7,975 bases of DNA from assembly GCA_024684665.1 (NCBI GenBank), contig JAIKWN010000210.1, forward strand, positions 1-7,975, read 5' to 3'. Below the pieces are notes generated by a model, which saw only the letters and a program-made list of their open reading frames with translations, did no database searches and was not told the origin of the DNA. Each line of letters begins with the position of its first letter. Position 1 is the stretch's first letter. Shown here one piece after another: positions 192-7,975 of the stretch. Source of the DNA: Clostridiales bacterium (GTDB taxonomy: Bacteria; Bacillota_A; Clostridia; Christensenellales; Aristaeellaceae). Made by a program: the position numbers and the translations under genes.

Positions 192-2714
192 TCAGACCTT
201 AACTCCAAGGTTTACCATTTCGATATTCCCGTTCGGGCACCGGTTAAAGCACATGCCACAGGCGACGCACGCCTCTTTTTTTATGGTCAGTTTGTCCGGG
301 GACGCGATTTCCGGCGCGAATTCGCAGCAGATTTCCCTGCACAGCTGACAGCCTTCCCCGCAGCCGCAGTTCAGGCACCGGGCGGCTTCGCTCACCGCTT
401 CCTCTTCCGTCATCAGCCTGCGGAAGGGCATAAAGCTCCGCTTTCGTTCCCTGCCAGGCACGTTCAGCTGAATCGGGTTCGGGTTGCGTTTCAGATAGCC
501 TGCCCGTTCCCGCACACGCTCCGCGTTTACCGTTTTTCCTTTCTCATTTCTTTGCAGAACGGCGCCATCGCCCCTCAGCAGAAGATCGATTTCCGCCGCG
601 GTTTCCATACCCGCTGCGACTGCATCCGCGATGCCGGATTCTGTCACCCTGCAGCGGATTGAAAACCCGCGCAACTCCCCGCCGCCTTGCGACGCGCAAA
701 GCGGATGTTCAAGGAAAACACGGTCACAGGCCGTACTGAGCTCGCTGCCTTCCTTCGTAAACAGCACCCCGTTTTTTTCGATCCGCAGAATCTTGGCATC
801 CGGAAGAACCGAAACGCCTTCCTCCCGGGCCAGGGTCAGGGCTTCCCGGTATCTCCCACCCCCGTCAAAGCGGTCTGTCCAGAGCAGAACAGTCTTTTCC
901 GCACCGAGCCGCACAGCCGTACGCGCCGCTTCCACAGCCGCAAATCCGCTTCCGATGACCGCAACGCGCGTCTTAGCCGTTTCCACACCGGCAAAACCGT
1001 TCTCAAGAAACGCCAGAGCGTCCTCCGCCAGCTCCGCGCCCGGAATCCCGGAGTCCCGCGGGGCACACGTACCCGTCGCAATCGAAAGAGCCGAATAGCC
1101 TTCCTCTCTTAAGGAGCTTTCGGAGAAGTCTTTCCCAAACGCCCTGCCGAAAGCAAAGCGCACGCCGTCCGCTTCAAGGTCCACAACGGTTTCATCCAGG
1201 ATCTGCCTGTCAAAGGTGTAATCCGGCGCGCCGCAGCGCAGCCTGCCGCCCGCTTTGGCTTCTTTTTCAAACACAGTAACGGAATAGCCCGCGCGGCTGA
1301 GCTCCGACGCGCAAGCGAGCCCCGCGGGTCCGGCGCCTGCGACAGCGACCCGAAGTCCGTTCTTCGTTGTGTCAGACGCCTTCTTCCATCCATGCATCCG
1401 GCCGTATTCTGTCACGAAGCGCATGAGATCCCGGATTTTCAGCGGTGCGTCCAGCCTGCCCCGGACACAGGCTTCTCCGCACGGCTGCGTACAGACTGCC
1501 GCGCAAAGTCTGTGCAGAGCCCCACGCGACATGAGAAGATCAAAAGCTGCGTGATAGTCCCGCTTCGCGATCTTCTGCACGCAGGCCTGCACCGGCAGAT
1601 GCATCGGACAGGCGCTCTTGCACGGCGCGTACAGGTTTGGTTCCTTAATCTGCGCGTATCCACCGTAAATCGTGAGATCATTGGCCGTACGCACCTCAGG
1701 CACCACGATGCTGCGCATCTCATTCAGATCTGCGTATCCGTGCCCGGTCATATAGTCTTTCAGGCCCCGGATCATCGGGCGCACGATATCATACCCCGAG
1801 ATCAGGGTTTCCGCGCAGACGCCAAGGAGGGTACCGCCGCAGAGCACCATCTCCGCCGCGTCCTTCCAGTTCGCGATTCCGCCGGTCGCAGTAATCGGAA
1901 CCTCAGGTCCGCAAACCTTTCGGATCTCGTAGGTATCCCTCTGGGCGAGCGGTTTCAGCCATGGGCCGCAGTGGCATCCCATGGAGATTTCTTCCTGAAG
2001 ATGCCAGTACGCTTTACCGGGCTCATCGAGATTGATCGGCGGCATGCCAAGCCGGTTGCCCGTTCCGCCCACCGCGTCTGCTCCGGCCTCAAAAAGGGCT
2101 TTCGCAACAGAGGCGATCTGTCCCCCCTCCGGGGTCAGCTTGACAAACAGCGGGATCGAGATTTTTCCCTTAATCGCGCTTACAATCTCCGCGGCGATTT
2201 CCGCGTGCTGTCCCATGCTGGCGCCGGTTTTCTTTGTCCCCGTATCTTTGCCGCCCCCGGTCAATTCGAGGTTATAGCTCATATTGGGGCAGCACATATT
2301 GAGCTCAATGATATCCGCGCCGGCTTCCTGAAAGCAGCGGGCCATATTCACCCATCCATCCGTCCCCTCATCCCCGGCATACGTGATGTTAGCCATCAGG
2401 ATGAGCTCCTTCAGCTTCGGTTTGGCCTCCTCAATCAGCCGGAGTCCCTCGGCAAAGGTGAGCCGTTTTTCCGCCGTAAAGGCGAGCGCGTTCCGGTCCG
2501 GAAACAGGCTGTACCGGGGTTTGCGGTTGATGTACGGCGCCGGATCGATGGACAGCTTGATGCTGGCCGCGGCCCAGCCCGTCTCCTCTATGCGCATAAG
2601 CTGCCGCACGGATTTCGTCGTCGGTCCCGACGCGACGTAAAACGGGTTTTTGAAGGTGATATTCCCCACGGTTACGGGGATCCGGATTTCCTTTTCCCGC
2701 CTGTCAGCACTCAT
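192..2714 (-). CDS. PreA/PreT-like fused Fe-S flavoprotein (dihydropyrimidine dehydrogenase relative, rearranged domains)
   Basis: This single 840-residue protein is built from three modules. Residues 1-350 form an FMN barrel like PreA and dihydroorotate dehydrogenase: NMCCPN (139-144) holds the catalytic-type Cys142, VKLTPE (191-196) holds Lys192, and TATGGI (275-280) is a phosphate loop. Residues 360-770 resemble PreT and the glutamate synthase small subunit: Cys365, 369, 404, 408, 412 and 416 suit Fe-S binding, GAGPAG (460-465) suits FAD, and GSGFAAVEAA (588-597) suits NAD(P)H. Residues 777-840 are a ferredoxin-like tail with many Cys, including CVACGMCFNRCP (816-827). In DPD the PreT-like part comes first; here it sits between barrel and ferredoxin. 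The pyrimidine-binding Asn-Thr of DPD aligns with Gly219-Asn220, so the substrate may differ. The ATG follows AAGGAGG by seven bases and overlaps the preceding gene by 11. Confidence 0.92.
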   Translation of the reverse strand: MSADRREKEIRIPVTVGNITFKNPFYVASGPTTKSVRQLMRIEETGWAAASIKLSIDPAPYINRKPRYSLFPDRNALAFTAEKRLTFAEGLRLIEEAKPKLKELILMANITYAGDEGTDGWVNMARCFQEAGADIIELNMCCPNMSYNLELTGGGKDTGTKKTGASMGQHAEIAAEIVSAIKGKISIPLFVKLTPEGGQIASVAKALFEAGADAVGGTGNRLGMPPINLDEPGKAYWHLQEEISMGCHCGPWLKPLAQRDTYEIRKVCGPEVPITATGGIANWKDAAEMVLCGGTLLGVCAETLISGYDIVRPMIRGLKDYMTGHGYADLNEMRSIVVPEVRTANDLTIYGGYAQIKEPNLYAPCKSACPMHLPVQACVQKIAKRDYHAAFDLLMSRGALHRLCAAVCTQPCGEACVRGRLDAPLKIRDLMRFVTEYGRMHGWKKASDTTKNGLRVAVAGAGPAGLACASELSRAGYSVTVFEKEAKAGGRLRCGAPDYTFDRQILDETVVDLEADGVRFAFGRAFGKDFSESSLREEGYSALSIATGTCAPRDSGIPGAELAEDALAFLENGFAGVETAKTRVAVIGSGFAAVEAARTAVRLGAEKTVLLWTDRFDGGGRYREALTLAREEGVSVLPDAKILRIEKNGVLFTKEGSELSTACDRVFLEHPLCASQGGGELRGFSIRCRVTESGIADAVAAGMETAAEIDLLLRGDGAVLQRNEKGKTVNAERVRERAGYLKRNPNPIQLNVPGRERKRSFMPFRRLMTEEEAVSEAARCLNCGCGEGCQLCREICCEFAPEIASPDKLTIKKEACVACGMCFNRCPNGNIEMVNLGVKV

Positions 2715-3792
2715 GATCCCGCCTCCTTGGCCGGGTTGGATTCACCACGTGTTCCCCTGTTTTCGCGGACCGGTAGATCAGGTTGATGACCTTCAGAGTT
2801 TCAAGCCCGTCGCAGCCCCGCAGACCGATCTGCGCGTCACGGTCCTTCAGCGCGCATTCCACAAAATGGCTGATCTCCCCGCAGTACCCGAGGCTGTACT
2901 TTTCATCGACCGCGGGCGTCGACCAGCCTGTGGTGATTTCCGCTTTTTCCACGGTATAGTCAAGACCGGGGATCGAGAACACCCGGACCGGTCCCGAGAA
3001 GGAGAGATCCACGTGAATGCATCCCTTTTCGCAGTAGATATCGAGAACGTCCTCCATGCCGCCCGTGGTCGTATAGTTGGCCTCCAGGGTCGCAAAAGTT
3101 CCGTCCTCAAAGCGCATGAACGCGCCTGCCCAGTCCTCGCCTTCCATCGTGCGATGGACAAGGTTCTTTTCCCCACCGCCCGAGGTCATTGCCACGAGCT
3201 CCCGCCAGCGGTTTTCCTTAAGTGAAAGCATGAACCCCACCGGGTGTACCCCCAGGTGAACCATGCACCCGCCGCCGCAGTAGCGGATCGTCTGCGCGAA
3301 GGGGCTGTGCGAGCCGCTGTGGCACTCCCGCGCGCGTACATGGAGCATCCGCCCGAGCTGCCCGCTTTCCAGAATCTCCCTCGCCTTGCGGAAGGCCGGA
3401 GCGAAAAGCCAGTCTTCGGCGTAGTAGATATGCCTCCCCATACGCTCCGCCGTATCCACCATGTCCTGCGCATCCTCCACGGTGGTCGCAAGCGGTTTCT
3501 CACAGATGATGTTCCGCCCCTTTGTGAGTGCGAGAATGGCCACGTCATGGTGCAGGAAGTTCGGCATACAGATGTCCACGAGATCGCAGTCGCAGTCCTC
3601 TATGGCGGTCTCATAATTGTCGTAAGCCGTATAGCCCGTGAAGCCGTAGCGATCGGCCAGCGCGGAAACCCTAGTGAGGTCCTTGTCACAGATGCCCGAG
3701 ATCGTCACCCGATCCCGGATCCGGCTGTACCCGTCGCAATGCAGATCCGCTGAAAAAGCAGCTCCGATTAAAAGCACTCGTAGCTTTTCCAT
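2704..3792 (-). CDS. Gfo/Idh/MocA-family NAD(P)-dependent oxidoreductase
   Basis: This 362-residue soluble dehydrogenase belongs to the family that oxidises or reduces a hydroxyl group on sugars, inositols and related compounds. The N-terminal Rossmann domain spans about 1-125, with the family Lys in ICEKPLAT (Glu98-Lys99-Pro100). The C-terminal alpha/beta substrate domain contains GVHP with the conserved His183. Two departures stand out. The nucleotide-binding loop reads GAAFSA (10-15) instead of GxGxxG. The position usually occupied by Asp before the catalytic His (DxGxH) is His179. The ATG at 3792 follows GGGAGGAAGG at 3794-3803 and lies 17 bases after the creatininase-type stop. The open frame continues further upstream, but that extension only overlaps the neighbouring gene. 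The last codons overlap the next gene by 11 bases. Inositol or sugar dehydrogenase is the default guess, with no firm substrate. Confidence 0.92.
   Translation of the reverse strand: MEKLRVLLIGAAFSADLHCDGYSRIRDRVTISGICDKDLTRVSALADRYGFTGYTAYDNYETAIEDCDCDLVDICMPNFLHHDVAILALTKGRNIICEKPLATTVEDAQDMVDTAERMGRHIYYAEDWLFAPAFRKAREILESGQLGRMLHVRARECHSGSHSPFAQTIRYCGGGCMVHLGVHPVGFMLSLKENRWRELVAMTSGGGEKNLVHRTMEGEDWAGAFMRFEDGTFATLEANYTTTGGMEDVLDIYCEKGCIHVDLSFSGPVRVFSIPGLDYTVEKAEITTGWSTPAVDEKYSLGYCGEISHFVECALKDRDAQIGLRGCDGLETLKVINLIYRSAKTGEHVVNPTRPRRRDHEC
2722..2728 (-). promoter_or_regulatory. Ribosome binding site of the PreA/PreT-like gene
   Basis: The minus strand reads AAGGAGG seven bases before the ATG at 2714, a near-perfect Shine-Dalgarno match. 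It lies inside the last codons of the Gfo/Idh/MocA gene and fixes the start of the flavoprotein. Confidence 0.85.
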
Positions 3793-3793
3793 A

Positions 3794-3803
3794 CCTTCCT
3801 CCC
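3794..3803 (-). promoter_or_regulatory. Ribosome binding site of the Gfo/Idh/MocA gene
   Basis: The minus strand reads GGGAGGAAGG directly before the ATG at 3792, with GGGAGG five bases from the start. It lies in the 17-base gap after the creatininase-type gene and rules out the longer upstream open frame as the real start. Confidence 0.75.
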
Positions 3804-3809
3804 GGGGCA

Positions 3810-4550
3810 CTAGAAGTTGCTGTAGTTCATCTTTTCCTTGGCACTCATGTACGCGAAGGCGCGCGTAAGCGCCTCTTCCGCCAGTTCCGTGCTTCTTTCG
3901 AGGATCCTTTCCCCTTTTTCCCGGCTGGCCAGCGTCGGGCTTCCCCAGACGCCGCCCGGACAGCAGCGGAAAATGCTGCCGTAGCTGAGATAGGGTCTCG
4001 GTACGGAGGGAACGAAATCCTCCGCCAGGTCCATATGTACGGTATCCGGCGCGATTGCGAGCATCTGGGAGGTCTCCCCCTCGCCAGCATGCAGTTCGTT
4101 GTCCGCTTCGAGGATACCCTCGCGGTACAGAATCTCGTTGAAGGCGCAGGTATCCGCGACGGCGACCATCAGGTCCGGATTGTATTTTGCGTTGAGATCG
4201 CGGATGAGCGGCGTCATGATGAAGATTCCCCCATGGCACTGCACGATGCCGATCCGGCGAAAGCCCTGCAGTTTAAGGCAGAGGATGATGTCCGTCATCA
4301 TCTGGTAGAAGGTTACGGGCTCCATCCAGACCGTGCCCTTTTTCCCCATCTGCTCCCGGTTGGTCGAGATGGGAAGCGCGGGCACCTGAAACGCATTCAT
4401 CCGTTCCGCGACCCTTCGGCCAAGCTCCGTGGCGATGGCCCAGTCGGTCATGATCGGCAGATGCGCGCCATGCTGTTCGATCGAGCCTACGGGAATGATG
4501 GCAAGATCCGGATCGCAGGCCATAATCTCGTCCGCGGTTTTCCGAAACAT
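3810..4550 (-). CDS. Creatininase-family metal-dependent amidohydrolase
   Basis: This 246-residue member of the creatininase family acts on cyclic amides and related compounds: creatinine, the formamidopyrimidine of archaeal flavin synthesis (ArfB), a peptide (MftE) or diketo-inositol (IolN). The N-terminal motif IPVGSIEQHGAHLPIMTD (19-36) gives probable metal ligands Glu25, His27 and Asp36. A second motif, QCHGG (104-108), gives His106, and LHAGEGETS (153-161) probably gives Glu157. The usual HGGN reads HGGI, losing the Asn. The ATG at 4550 was chosen because AAGGGAGG stands seven bases before it and the NagB-like stop is just upstream. An in-frame GTG at 4583 would add 11 residues that overlap that gene and its ribosome binding site. 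The true substrate cannot be read from the sequence. Confidence 0.9.
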   Translation of the reverse strand: MFRKTADEIMACDPDLAIIPVGSIEQHGAHLPIMTDWAIATELGRRVAERMNAFQVPALPISTNREQMGKKGTVWMEPVTFYQMMTDIILCLKLQGFRRIGIVQCHGGIFIMTPLIRDLNAKYNPDLMVAVADTCAFNEILYREGILEADNELHAGEGETSQMLAIAPDTVHMDLAEDFVPSVPRPYLSYGSIFRCCPGGVWGSPTLASREKGERILERSTELAEEALTRAFAYMSAKEKMNYSNF

Positions 4551-4557
4551 ATGAGAA

Positions 4558-4565
4558 CCTCCCTT
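4558..4565 (-). promoter_or_regulatory. Ribosome binding site of the creatininase-family gene
   Basis: The minus strand reads AAGGGAGG seven bases before the ATG at 4550. It begins inside the TAA stop of the NagB-like gene. It decides for the ATG at 4550 over the GTG at 4583. Confidence 0.8.
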
Positions 4566-5328
4566 ACAGGATCCGGCTCGCACTGTCGCGATCCAGGTAC
4601 AGGGCTGCGGATGGATGGCGGCGCAGGATGCTTGCGGGGCATGCCTCCGTGACCGGCCCGCAGAGGGCGTTAAACACCGCGTCCGCCTTGCGCGGTCCCG
4701 GTACGGTACAGACCGCCTCCGGGACGGACATCAGGTAAGACATCGTCATCGTGAGCGCACGCTTCGGTACTGCCTCAAGGGACGGAAAGCATCCATCGTT
4801 CACCTGCTGCTGTCGGCAGACGGCATCGAGCTCAACGGCCTTCAGAACCAGGGGATCCCTGAAATCGGCAACCGCGGGATCGTTAAACGCGAGATGCCCG
4901 TTTTCCCCGATCCCGAGCAGAACCAGATCCGCCGGATGCGCCTTTAAAAGCGCCTCATACACCCGGCATTTTTCGGGATATTCGTCCTCCTTGCACAGCA
5001 GATAGTGCTTTTCCATAAAGGGAACCTTCGAAAAGATCGCCCGATCCAGGAAATTCCCGAACCCGGCCGGCTCCGCCGCGTCGATGCCGATATACTCGTC
5101 CATGTGATAGGCACGCACGCGCCGCCAGTCGATGTCCTCTTTTTGCAGCTGGTCCAGCATTTCATTCTGGGAAGGGGCCGCAGCGAAAATGACGTTCGCT
5201 TCTCCCTTCTCATCGATCAGCCTCCGGATCCGCAGCGCAGCGTCCTTCGCCGCGGCAATTCCCATCCGGTCCCTGTCAGGACAGATGAAGACCTTTAGGC
5301 TTTCAACCTGCTTTGTGATCGCTTCCAT
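4564..5328 (-). CDS. NagB-like glucosamine-6-phosphate deaminase/isomerase family protein
   Basis: This 254-residue cytoplasmic sugar-phosphate isomerase/deaminase relative has the NagB/RpiA/6-phosphogluconolactonase fold. Family marks include MDEY (76-79; Asp77 matches the catalytic Asp72 of E. coli NagB), GIGENGHLAFNDP (139-151), and the C-terminal segments VPGPRKADAV and PASILRRH. Compared with E. coli NagB, Asp141 is replaced by Asn143, His143 is kept as His145, and Glu148 is replaced by Asp150. From memory this GENGH...FND form marks a common NagB-like subgroup, many of whose members are only annotated by homology. Deamination of an amino-sugar phosphate is therefore likely but not proven. 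The ATG lies inside the end of livF, behind GGGAGGGG in that gene. No sugar kinase or PTS gene is visible here to make the expected phosphorylated substrate. Confidence 0.88.
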   Translation of the reverse strand: MEAITKQVESLKVFICPDRDRMGIAAAKDAALRIRRLIDEKGEANVIFAAAPSQNEMLDQLQKEDIDWRRVRAYHMDEYIGIDAAEPAGFGNFLDRAIFSKVPFMEKHYLLCKEDEYPEKCRVYEALLKAHPADLVLLGIGENGHLAFNDPAVADFRDPLVLKAVELDAVCRQQQVNDGCFPSLEAVPKRALTMTMSYLMSVPEAVCTVPGPRKADAVFNALCGPVTEACPASILRRHPSAALYLDRDSASRIL

Positions 5329-6067
5329 CCGAATCCCCTCCCTGCTTTCGTCCTGTACCCAGATAGGCTGCCGCGACTTCCGGGTTTTTGAGCAGCTCGC
5401 TGCCCGTTCCCGTCATGACGACGCAGCCGTTTTCAACCACATACGCGGTATCGGAAATACCGAGCGACTTCTTGGCGTTCTGCTCCACAAGGATGATGCT
5501 TACCCCTTCGTTTTTTATGCGGAGAATGGTGTCAAACACCTCGTTTACGATAACGGGCGCGAGGCCCAGCGAGGGCTCGTCGAGCATTAAAAGCTTCGGC
5601 TTTGCCATAAGCGCCCGGCAGATTGCGAGCATCTGCTGTTCCCCGCCGGACAGCGTTCCAGCGTCCTGCGCGCGGCGTTCCTTCAGCCTCGGGAACAGTG
5701 TATACTGCTCCTCGAGAAGGGCGTCCACCTCGCGTCCGTGAACGACATAGGCACCCGCGCGCAGGTTTTCCTCCACTGTGAGGCCAGCGAATATTTTTCG
5801 TCCCTCCGGGACCTGAATCAGGCCCTCGCGGACGACCCGATGCGCTTTTTCGGAGAGCGGGCGCCCGTCAAACAGGATGCTCCCTTCCCGACGCACCATA
5901 CCGGAGACCGCGTTGAGGATCGATGTTTTCCCGGCCCCGTTGGAGCCGATAATCGCCGTCACGCATCCGCGGCGGATGTCCATGTCAACACCGCGCACGG
6001 CTTCATGAACGCCGTAAAACACGCGCAGGGAACGGATCTCGAGGATCGTTTCGCCGATTTCCGCCAT
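5303..6067 (-). CDS. livF: ABC transporter ATP-binding protein, LivF family
   Basis: This 254-residue second ATPase of the importer is expected to pair with LivG. It shows Walker A GSNGAGKTS (41-49), Q-loop Gln85 in LIQVPEGR, canonical signature LSGGE (139-143) and Walker B LLMLDE (159-164) followed by PSLGLAP. The switch position is Gln196 (VEQN) instead of His, as is usual in LivF. The family ending AYLG (234-237) is followed by an unusually polar tail of 17 residues. That tail carries a 26-base overlap with the next gene, so translation of the NagB-like gene is probably coupled to it. The overlap also ties the transporter to the downstream enzymes as one transcription unit. Confidence 0.96.
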   Translation of the reverse strand: MAEIGETILEIRSLRVFYGVHEAVRGVDMDIRRGCVTAIIGSNGAGKTSILNAVSGMVRREGSILFDGRPLSEKAHRVVREGLIQVPEGRKIFAGLTVEENLRAGAYVVHGREVDALLEEQYTLFPRLKERRAQDAGTLSGGEQQMLAICRALMAKPKLLMLDEPSLGLAPVIVNEVFDTILRIKNEGVSIILVEQNAKKSLGISDTAYVVENGCVVMTGTGSELLKNPEVAAAYLGTGRKQGGDSDGSDHKAG

Positions 6068-6069
6068 GC

Positions 6070-6843
6070 TTACGCCTCCTCTCCGAGGTAAGCCTTAAGC
6101 ACCATGGGGTTTGTACGGATCTCCTCCGGGACCCCCTGCGCGATGGTCTCACCGAAGTCCTGCACGTAAATGTAATCGCTGAGGTTCATGACCAGGTCCA
6201 TGCGGTGTTCAATGACCAGAATGGCGAGTTTCGGGTATTTGCGCTGGATCTCGCGGATAAAGTCGCCAAGCTGCAGGACTTCCTCCGGATTGAGGCCCGC
6301 CGCCGGTTCGTCCAGCATGAGGACCTTCGGGTCGGACACCAGCGCGCGGGCGATTTCGACCCTGCGCTGGATCCCGTAGGGAAGACTGGAGGGTCTGCTG
6401 TCCGCGTAGTGATCGAGATTGAGGAGGCGAAGACAGCCGAGCGCCCGTTCCCGTATGACCTTCTCCCGCTTCCAGCGTCTTGGGAGCAGGAGCATGGCCT
6501 CCAGCATCGTGTATCCGCCGGCGAAGTCCAGGGCAACCTTGACATTGTCAAGAACGCTGAGGCCCGTAAACAGACGGGTATTCTGAAAGGTTCTCGAGAT
6601 TCCGAGTCTCGCCGTCTCGATCTGGGACATGGCGGTTATGTCGCGTCCTTCCAGCCATACGGTTCCCCTGTCCGGTTTATAAATGCGGGAAATCAGATTG
6701 AAGATCGTGGTTTTCCCGGCCCCGTTGGGTCCGATGATCGCGGTCAGACTGCCTGCTTCCGCCTGAAAGCTGAAATCCTTGACCGCCGCAACGCCTCCGA
6801 AGTTTTTATACAGGTGCTCCGTTTTAAGAACGGCTTCTGCCAT
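6070..6843 (-). CDS. livG: ABC transporter ATP-binding protein, LivG family
   Basis: This 257-residue cytoplasmic ATPase powers the LivHM permease pair. It shows Walker A GPNGAGKTT (38-46), Q-loop Gln87 in SRTFQNTRLF, a signature segment LPYGIQRR (154-161), Walker B VLMLDE (174-179, catalytic Glu179) and switch His213 in IEHRMD. The signature departs from canonical LSGGQ, but LivG proteins commonly carry LPYGQQRR, so only Ile158 for Gln is a small deviation. The C-terminal NPMVLKAYLGEEA is the usual LivG ending. The start overlaps the livM stop by one base. The stop is followed after two bases by the livF ATG, and the livF ribosome binding site (GGAGAGGAGG) lies inside the last codons of this gene. 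Confidence 0.96.
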   Translation of the reverse strand: MAEAVLKTEHLYKNFGGVAAVKDFSFQAEAGSLTAIIGPNGAGKTTIFNLISRIYKPDRGTVWLEGRDITAMSQIETARLGISRTFQNTRLFTGLSVLDNVKVALDFAGGYTMLEAMLLLPRRWKREKVIRERALGCLRLLNLDHYADSRPSSLPYGIQRRVEIARALVSDPKVLMLDEPAAGLNPEEVLQLGDFIREIQRKYPKLAILVIEHRMDLVMNLSDYIYVQDFGETIAQGVPEEIRTNPMVLKAYLGEEA

Positions 6844-7745
6844 CAGGCATCACCGCCCTTCGCGAGCTTTTCCCTTTTTTCTCCGAGCTTCCGGAGCCGT
6901 TTCAGAGACAGCTCGTTTTCACCCATCAGACCGTTGGTCCGGAAGTTGATCACGACGAGGATGAGAACGCAGTAAATGATGGTTTTGCAGCTCTGCAGGT
7001 CAACGCCGAACAGCTGAACTCCCTTCAGGAATTCCGGCAGCACCTTGAGGCCGGCAGCGGAAATCATGGAGCCGGTCAGGGAATTTGTTCCGCCGAAGAA
7101 CAGCAGGATCTGCATCTCGGCCGACAGCGACCAGCCAAAGGCGTCCGGGGCGATCACCCGGTTGCGCAGCCCGTACAGGATTCCGCCCACCGCGGCGATC
7201 ATCGAGGCGAAGACATAGACCTTTACCTTCAGGCGGTAGACGTCAATTCCGAAGCTGCGTGCCGCGACCTCATCCGTCTTGAGGGCGATCAGCATGCGCC
7301 CAAAGCGGGAATACTTGAGGTTGCGGACCATGAAAATCACAAAGGCGGTAATCCCGAGAACGATCCATACCAAGTTCTTGACCTTGGGGATCTTGGAAAA
7401 CCCGATGGAGGCGTTGGTCCATTCCCCGAGAAGGATCACGATGGATGAAACCATCTGGGAGAAGCCGACGGAAAGCAGCGCGAAATAATCGCGTCTCAGG
7501 CGCAGGGTCGGCAGCGAAATGATGAGGGCTATCAGCCCGCTGACCCCAACGCCGATGACCGATGTCAGAAGAATGGGCAGCTTTAGATACCTTGCGAGGC
7601 AGAAGGTCAGGTAGGCGCAGATCGACATGTAAGCCGCCTGCCCCAGGGAAAACATGCCCGCGAGGCTCGTAATGCAGAATACGCCGCAGACCGTGATCAT
7701 GGAGACGCATGCCATGATGATCAGGGAAATCTGGTAATTGCTCAT
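6843..7745 (-). CDS. livM: ABC transporter permease, LivM family
   Basis: This 300-residue second permease subunit of the HAAT-type importer pairs with LivH in the membrane. It is strongly hydrophobic, with likely membrane segments near residues 7-29, 57-78, 88-108, 124-141, 175-193, 211-232 and 252-268. Family landmarks are SLGQAAYMSICAY (33-45), the cytoplasmic loop with SRFGRMLIALKTDEVAA (146-162), which is the ATPase-coupling region, and FGGTNSLTG (217-225). The C-terminus is a basic, Lys/Arg-rich tail (about 281-297). A GGGGGGA ribosome binding site at 7751-7757, five bases before ATG, supports this start. The stop codon overlaps the livG start by one base (TGATG), so translational coupling is likely. 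The length is close to that of other short LivM proteins. Family assignment is firm; substrate is unknown. Confidence 0.95.
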   Translation of the reverse strand: MSNYQISLIIMACVSMITVCGVFCITSLAGMFSLGQAAYMSICAYLTFCLARYLKLPILLTSVIGVGVSGLIALIISLPTLRLRRDYFALLSVGFSQMVSSIVILLGEWTNASIGFSKIPKVKNLVWIVLGITAFVIFMVRNLKYSRFGRMLIALKTDEVAARSFGIDVYRLKVKVYVFASMIAAVGGILYGLRNRVIAPDAFGWSLSAEMQILLFFGGTNSLTGSMISAAGLKVLPEFLKGVQLFGVDLQSCKTIIYCVLILVVINFRTNGLMGENELSLKRLRKLGEKREKLAKGGDA

Positions 7746-7759
7746 GACACTCCCCCCAC

Positions 7760-7975
7760 TTACACCTTGTCTCTCGCAAAGCGGCCGAAGATTCCCTCGG
7801 GGCGCACCGCCAGGAATACCAGCATGATGCCGAAGAGGATGATCGGTGATACGAGCGCTCCGAAATAATACGTCAGGAGCATTTCGACGATGCCAAGGCC
7901 GAGCGCCGCGATGATCGCCCCGCCCAGGCTGCCGAGGCCCCCGAATACGGACGCGATAAAGCCCTTGATCATCAT
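7760..7975 (-). CDS. livH: ABC transporter permease, LivH family (C-terminal part only)
   Basis: This is the C-terminal 71 residues of an inner-membrane permease of a branched-chain-amino-acid-type (HAAT) ABC importer; the rest lies beyond the right window edge. The first ATG in view sits at the very edge and is almost certainly internal, because LivH proteins are usually about 290-300 residues. The visible part has the family's Gly-rich segment (VFGGLGSLGGA, about residues 10-20 of the fragment), then two hydrophobic stretches and the typical ending RPEGIFGR followed by a short basic tail. The stop codon is 14 bases before the livM start, which fits livH-livM-livG-livF order. LivH and LivM form the membrane channel. 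The substrate cannot be read from this fragment: this transporter family also carries urea, short amides and other polar compounds. Confidence 0.9.
   Translation of the reverse strand: MMIKGFIASVFGGLGSLGGAIIAALGLGIVEMLLTYYFGALVSPIILFGIMLVFLAVRPEGIFGRFARDKV

Follow-up and report, generated by a model that had tools for sequence, protein, structure and literature searches.

The fusion gene at the locus

The stretch of DNA analysed here (7,975 nucleotides of contig JAIKWN010000210.1, assembly GCA_024684665.1, from a Clostridiales bacterium; in the following the window) encodes on its minus strand a fusion protein in which a flavin mononucleotide (FMN) barrel is followed by an iron–sulfur (Fe-S) domain of the type known from dihydropyrimidine dehydrogenase (DPD), by a module for flavin adenine dinucleotide (FAD) and nicotinamide adenine dinucleotide (phosphate) (NAD(P)), and by a ferredoxin tail. 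Judged from sequence comparison, the point of interest in this protein family is that its electron-input module appears to have been lost step by step and more than once, with the wiring kept. The features of the gene are:

192..2714, minus strand: fusion gene, 840 amino acids (aa), with FMN barrel, DPD-type Fe-S domain, eroded FAD/NAD(P) module and ferredoxin tail with eight cysteines
2289..2291, minus strand: Cys142, by alignment the counterpart of Cys671 in pig DPD; every one of the 262 aligned full fusions has cysteine here
1392..1631, minus strand: Fer4_20 domain, residues 362–441 (Pfam match, alignment)
1422..1424, minus strand: Met431, at a position where relatives have lysine
510..1358, minus strand: FAD/NAD(P) module, residues 453–735, folded in the model, ligand-site residues lost
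1320..1337, minus strand: FAD Rossmann motif GAGPAG, residues 460–465, retained
936..953, minus strand: NAD(P) Rossmann motif GSGFAA, residues 588–593, retained
870..881, minus strand: WTDR at residues 612–615, replacing the YRRT motif
636..662, minus strand: residues about 685–693, site at which the window protein lacks the Gly-Asp motif for FAD (AGGD) seen in relatives
363..389, minus strand: EAARCLNCG, residues 776–784, with Cys780 and Cys783
195..362, minus strand: ferredoxin tail, residues 785–840, two [4Fe-4S] sites predicted

The fusion is one uninterrupted frame of 840 aa with the sequence AAGGAGG 8 bases upstream of its ATG, and its start overlaps the upstream Gfo/Idh frame by 11 bases. 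The Pfam matches follow each other in the order DHO_dh (14–322), Fer4_20 (363–441), Pyr_redox_2 (455–667, the profile match ending at 232 of 291) and Fer4 (810–831). This agrees with an initial annotation of the DNA, which had described barrel, Fe-S/FAD/NAD module and ferredoxin in one frame and in an order unlike DPD; its domain boundaries were also about right, as we place the barrel up to residue ~340, the Fe-S and FAD/NAD parts at about 360–735 and the tail at 776–840. Cys671 was identified from the C671A chain 1h7x in the alignment with the window protein, and we take this residue to have a catalytic role in DPD. In the predicted model the loops 56–83, 142–166, 220–224 and 241–255 have a predicted local distance difference test score (pLDDT) below 50. 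The best structural match of the module are the NAD(P)H subunits of the PRK12771/NfnA/StnC type, and the fold-similarity list of the model includes dienoyl-CoA and naphthoyl-CoA reductases (barrel plus FAD) with a root mean square deviation of about 28.

Homologs were collected in a protein search, in which 7993 candidates were scored and 1404 passed E ≤ 0.001, the best 120 being listed. In addition, 30 loci, 29 of them full, were drawn from a species-genome collection via exact peptide patterns. A frameshift or an assembly chimera of two genes, named in the initial annotation as a finding that would refute it, is ruled out by stop-free loci, homologs of like length and independent copies. The frame has no stop in 29 of 29 full loci (the partial locus L025 was excluded from this count), the best 120 of the 1404 homologs are all 827–859 aa long, a 99% identical copy of 840 aa (P0001) lies on an 11.5-kb contig, and 10 of 291 genomes of an evenly drawn class sample contain the fusion. 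Nothing was found that would favour a chimera, whose probability we consider negligible. Because all full loci are stop-free the fusion is not an artefact, and we are practically certain that it is a real, conserved gene.

Erosion of the FAD/NAD(P) module

The alignment comprised 262 full-length fusions, 150 near and 112 far. The near set consists of the window, 29 loci and the best 120 search matches, and is biased towards the window as it holds the window's own search matches and loci found with its own peptide patterns. The far set consists of those 112 of the 118 proteins P0241–P0358 that have at least 830 aa; these proteins are the top matches to one Planctomycetes protein (P0211).

The two sets differ in the residues that bind the nucleotides. 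The FAD Gly-Asp motif is present in 112/112 far and in 10/150 near sequences, the window having a gap there, and the NADP arginine pair, lost in the window, is present in 108/112 far sequences and in three of the 150 near ones (L020, L023, L026). The remaining four far fusions (P0339, P0346, P0348, P0354) carry VAEIM instead of YRRT, which suggests a specificity for NADH over NADPH. In contrast to the lost residues, Cys142 and the full set of 16 cysteines in the Fe-S regions occur in 150/150 near sequences, among them Cys365, 369, 404, 408, 412 and 416 of the Fer4_20 domain; the cysteines of the ferredoxin tail are Cys785, 789, 792, 796, 816, 819, 822 and 826. By the DPD pattern about 15 of the 16 are presumably cluster ligands.

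The erosion is also visible in the rate of change. In the NAD domain the entropy averages 1.72 for the near set vs 0.99 for the far set, and in the barrel 0.48 vs 1.14. The window shares 67% of its barrel residues and 31% of its NAD-domain residues with the intact L020; for the far protein P0241 the identities to L020 are 58% and 69%, respectively. The median ratio of NAD distance to barrel distance is 2.88 for 8322 eroded pairs vs 0.81 for 4541 intact pairs (barrel distance 0.10–0.45), the pairs being non-independent and the ranges of both groups overlapping.

The position of Met431 has to be judged separately. Lysine is found there in 146/150 near and 107/112 far sequences, and through an alignment with NfnA we read the position as the equivalent of StnC Lys170, which, according to passages of PMC10482914, ligates the FAD-proximal cluster. 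Met431 is confined to the window's own sub-lineage (4/150 near sequences are without the lysine) and, being a sub-lineage trait, gives no evidence for the eroded clade as a whole.

Relatives without the module

A search with the barrel only (the best 120 of 941 matches listed) yielded relatives of 536–573 aa which have the barrel, the Fer4_20 cysteines, the later cysteine pair and the eight-cysteine ferredoxin and are without the FAD/NAD module. Further relatives of about 400–445 aa consist of barrel and ferredoxin only; other short rows look truncated and were excluded from the loss count. All 16 cysteines are invariant in 21 aligned relatives of the 536–573-aa kind. The model of the module-less P0139, from Oscillospiraceae bacterium MB08-C2-2, has a mean pLDDT of 76.9, and the structural-match rows shown for it reach residue 338 only.

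In a barrel tree of 62 rows, from which nine near-duplicate rows and the basal barrel–ferredoxin rows were omitted, the 28 rows without the module lie nested within groups of full fusions. Placing all of them in a single clade lowers the log-likelihood by 97.5 and is rejected (p 1.8e-73), and the tree implies at least four changes of architecture, at least three of the arginine pair and at least six of the Gly-Asp motif; for example, the module-less P0127 (548 aa) is sister to the eroded L019 with support of 100/99. The barrel tree by itself does not separate gain from loss. Two points suggest loss: the 536–573-aa proteins keep the Fe-S domain of the module, and the modules are monophyletic. 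The 17 fusion modules of the module tree, that of L017 and 16 intact ones, group together with support of 100/100, and the module was thus probably acquired once. We infer from these sequences that the FAD/NAD module has been lost repeatedly in sister lineages. In a barrel tree of 107 rows the barrel–ferredoxin forms are basal, which makes the fusion a derived state from which some lineages returned, through later losses, to a two-part form.

How the parts were joined

The position of the EAxRCxxCG cysteine pair gives a hint how the fusion was assembled. In E. coli PreT and GltD the EAxRCLxC pair precedes APCxxxCP; in PreT it is N-terminal, whereas in the fusion it is C-terminal. The pair also lies behind the FAD module in L065, in YgfK, in subunits of the PRK12771/NfnA/StnC type and in several long proteins of the NfnA or PRK12814 type (these labels for L043, L044, L064 and L066–L073 are our own naming). 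In the fusion as in L065, a protein of 557 aa that passes the PRK12771 cut-off and in which no FMN barrel was seen, the ferredoxin follows directly after the pair.

Cys780 and Cys783 are most likely two ligands of a Fer4_20 cluster, supplied from the C-terminal side. This is supported by the tails of 14 barrel–ferredoxin relatives, in which the Fer4_20 motif and the separate pair are missing jointly; the RCxxCG string of P0188 is the first ferredoxin motif and not a separate pair. As the pair is placed beside the ferredoxin as in L065, joining of a barrel to a complete Fe-S/FAD/NAD/ferredoxin unit appears at least as simple as an insertion of PreT into PreA. Two details go beyond the initial annotation: residues have been lost from the PreT-like part, which is therefore no longer intact, and the EAxRCLNCG pair with which the tail opens most likely belongs to the module's Fe-S domain.

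Comparison with known enzymes

The initial annotation had considered the domain order to be new. In fact YgfK of E. coli, described in 2025 as a yanthine (2,8-dioxopurine) reductase (passages of PMC12507026), has the same motif order and a published activity: a part of about 440 aa at the N terminus, APCxxxC at 458, the FAD/NAD module, EAARCLEC at 894 and CxxCxxCxxxCP at 938. APCxxxC and CxxCxxCxxxCP are found in 13/13 sequences (E. coli YgfK and 12 relatives) and E[AST]xRCxxC between them in 8/13, the relative L074 having the variant EPQRCLEC. YgfK and the fusion match in sequence in the module only (30% over 325 residues); their N-terminal parts are co-linear in HHalign at a non-significant E of 0.034, so that the FMN part of YgfK rests on the published modelling. 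The same passages of PMC12507026 describe modelled FMN and FAD sites and report that YgfK turns over only when the ring hydrolase SsnA is added to it. The electron donor of YgfK is NAD(P)H, whereas the window protein has lost the NAD(P)H ligand residues. With the YgfK model TIGR03315 the window scores 141.4 bits in the module only, below the cut-off of 835.

DPD and the PreT/PreA pair share their parts with the fusion and differ in order. Like DPD, the fusion has an FMN barrel with the equivalent of Cys671; the DPD order is Fe-S/FAD/NADPH, barrel, ferredoxin, and in the fusion the barrel comes first. Of the residues that bind NAD(P)H and FAD in DPD the Rossmann glycines are present, WTDR stands for YRRT and the Gly-Asp motif is missing. 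The different order argues for a fusion independent of that of DPD; in the module tree, calculated without an AegA/YgfT row and with pig DPD on a very long branch, a clade of DPD, PreT and the fusions was not rejected (p 0.51). The barrel is 27% identical to E. coli PreA and the module 31% to PreT. The PreA model NF006183 gives 181.6 bits (cut-off 335) and PRK12771 (NF009410), the best NCBIfam match of the module, 252.2 bits (cut-off 516), both below the cut-off.

PydAc from Clostridium chromiireducens has no FAD part and was shown by experiment to reduce uracil with reduced ferredoxin (passages of PMC7332683), and UacX from C. difficile is likewise FAD-less (passages of PMC12507026). Both have, like the fusion, an FMN part and Fe-S domains; unlike the fusion they have no FAD/NAD(P)H part, and the passages describe no remnant module. 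Their substrates are uracil or yanthine. Going by these descriptions only, they resemble the 536–573-aa relatives, which are without an FAD/NADPH domain, whereas the window protein keeps the module.

The operon

Upstream of the fusion the window contains the following genes:

2704..3792, minus strand: Gfo/Idh/MocA dehydrogenase gene, which overlaps the start of the fusion gene
3810..4550, minus strand: creatininase-family hydrolase gene, with relatives at 20 of the 31 loci
4564..5328, minus strand: NagB-like sugar-phosphate isomerase/deaminase gene, with relatives at 23 of the 31 loci
5303..6067, minus strand: LivF-type ATP-binding cassette (ABC) ATPase gene
6070..6843, minus strand: LivG-type ABC ATPase gene
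6843..7745, minus strand: LivM-type permease gene; its upstream neighbours are cut by the window end

Relatives of the Gfo/Idh gene lie directly upstream of the fusion in 30 of 30 full loci. The gene order of the operon (window 2704–7975: LivFGM-type transporter, NagB-like, creatininase-family, Gfo/Idh) is the same in L015 and L019. With its constant Gfo/Idh gene the operon points to an unassigned uptake and catabolic route in Clostridia, many of which come from herbivore guts according to their records. With tblastn, relatives of a D-mannonate oxidoreductase-family short-chain dehydrogenase were found in 20 of the 31 loci, of Ldh_2 in 19, of malic enzyme in 15, of a 2-keto-3-deoxygluconate-type kinase in five, of 2-keto-3-deoxy-6-phosphogluconate aldolase in four and of altronate dehydratase in one, several loci ending early at contig ends.

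A substrate of the inositol or phloroglucinol type was weighed because of the sugar-acid genes and the weak score of the creatininase gene with the IolN model (69 bits, cut-off 245); neither line decides. No dihydropyrimidinase-type amidohydrolase was found among the seven window proteins scanned; the other loci were not scanned for one. Downstream of the fusion, at 1–90 on the minus strand, a frame beginning with MEMDSERLKSYYLDKDYNCAETTLRLI runs off the window. Its 30 available residues match no Pfam family; the NCAE string is reminiscent of the C_GCAxxG_C_C redox-protein family. In L024 (1507–3794) a pair of NfnAB-like genes, a DHODB_Fe-S_bind/NAD subunit and a Fer4_20/Pyr_redox_2 subunit, lies upstream of the fusion gene and of its NagB-like, creatininase and Gfo/Idh neighbours; the module of this fusion is eroded, and the small subunit was found in one of the 31 loci.

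Proposed mechanism and its alternatives

Starting from the architecture, conservation, erosion, repeated loss and gene neighbourhood described above, we make the following proposal on cluster number, ligands, donor, direction and ring opening. The fusion would be a reductase driven by ferredoxin or a similar carrier, from a family in the course of switching its electron donor, and would work together with the Gfo/Idh dehydrogenase (probability about 0.6). The FMN barrel would reduce, or in reverse dehydrogenate, a small and probably ring-shaped substrate. Electrons would reach the FMN via predicted [4Fe-4S] clusters, two of Fer4_20 (with Cys780/Cys783) and two of the ferredoxin tail; such an Fe-S wire is very probable. 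In the ancestor, electrons from NAD(P)H would have entered through the FAD module as in DPD and YgfK. Mainly clostridial lineages, that of the window among them, have since lost the site for NAD(P)H and, in part, the one for FAD, with wire and FMN barrel being kept, and several sister lineages no longer have the module. We consider it probable that the window protein does not use NAD(P)H, and slightly favour reduced ferredoxin as its present donor, or else a comparable one-electron carrier that docks on the Fe-S domain, in line with the experiments on clostridial PydAc. More tentatively, the creatininase-family hydrolase may open the reduced ring, the Gfo/Idh enzyme belonging to the same route; this reduce-then-hydrolyse scheme is proposed by analogy to DPD with dihydropyrimidinase and YgfK with SsnA.

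Several observations weigh against this proposal. The FAD GxGxxG glycines are each kept in 149–150 of 150 near sequences, Glu483 in 143, and Gly588, Gly590 and Ala593 of the NAD site in 149, 139 and 148, so that FAD may still bind. The ratio of nonsynonymous to synonymous substitution rates (dN/dS) in the three closest pairs (L005, L021, L029; barrel dS 0.38–0.48) is 0.14–0.25 for the NAD domain vs 0.01 for the barrel, and the low value for the NAD domain argues that the shell of the module is still under selection; across all pairs listed it reaches 0.77 in the NAD domain and at most 0.24 in the barrel. Pyr_redox_2 of the window is still above the Pfam cut-off and the module is still folded in the model. 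L023 (10001–12640) has an intact NADP/FAD module within the eroded barrel clade; the module tree groups it with L026 (94/82), which makes an exchange of modules between lineages possible. Module-less members are known from the proteins of the barrel search alone, many of them metagenomic; none was found in 391 class genomes (query P0139; 11 matches, frames of 790–912 aa), in nine order genomes (three matches, 790–889 aa) or in 198 phylum genomes (query P0152; one match, 901 aa). Finally, no donor protein was identified, and NfnAB stands beside the operon in one of the 31 loci (L024).

The kept Rossmann glycines, the purifying selection and a fold predicted with good confidence that matches NfnA/StnC would also suit a module that still uses NAD(P)H and FAD, its binding residues having been replaced by fast evolution or a changed nucleotide specificity. 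We regard this as rather improbable, since in the near set the Gly-Asp motif and the arginine pair are gone with several residues at each place and no common replacement, the NAD/barrel ratio is 2.88 vs 0.81, and module-less relatives occur at several places of the tree. Even less probable is what the initial annotation had put forward, an intact, self-contained NAD(P)H-to-FMN chain that arose by insertion of PreT into PreA. The basal barrel–ferredoxin forms do make a barrel–ferredoxin ancestor likely, and to this extent the insertion retains some standing; against it stand the L065-like arrangement of EAxRCxxCG and ferredoxin and the different, PreA-like tails of P0188, P0196 and P0203, barrel–ferredoxin proteins that stand beside the fusion P0260 in the barrel tree. 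The chain itself does not hold for the window, where arginine pair, FAD Gly-Asp motif and StnC-type lysine are missing, and relatives without any module exist. The direction may also be oxidative, the barrel dehydrogenating its substrate and the clusters passing electrons to oxidised ferredoxin. Barrels of the dihydroorotate dehydrogenase type run both ways, the neighbours include sugar-acid dehydrogenase families, and NfnAB is present in one locus. This we consider unlikely, as the similarly built DPD, YgfK, PydAc and UacX are described as reductases in passages of PMC7332683 and PMC12507026.

Returning to the ferredoxin-driven reductase, there is an even chance that the family, found mainly in gut Clostridia and Treponema, preserves all stages of the donor switch, several independent switches and a new reductive ring-opening route with Gfo/Idh and creatininase-family enzymes. 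The stages would be an intact module, an eroded but folded shell as in the window, a deleted module with the Fe-S domain kept, and barrel plus ferredoxin. The passages cited above present published DPD-type enzymes either in an NAD(P)H version or in a ferredoxin version, each as a completed end state (DPD/PydAc; YgfK/UacX). With intermediates side by side, the order of loss (nucleotide site, then FAD site, the Fe-S domain last) becomes testable.

Occurrence and annotation

The fusion family is widespread. With a Planctomycetes relative as query, fusions of about 880–900 aa are among the matches listed, and the named hosts include Planctomycetota, Kiritimatiellia, Lentisphaerae, Actinobacteria, Firmicutes and others. 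No study and no assay of any member of the fusion family was found in the open-licence literature of PubMed Central, and passages of PMC12547972 and PMC6037941 do not mention this domain order. A JGI source already assigns names to some fusions, which indicates that annotation pipelines see the fusion; automatic names derived from the FAD or glutamate-synthase domain may assign the wrong electron donor. In six loci (L002, L004, L005, L014, L021, L029) open frames of 934–1574 aa on the opposite strand span the fusion gene and mask it when genes are picked by the longest open reading frame, perhaps an effect of codon usage.

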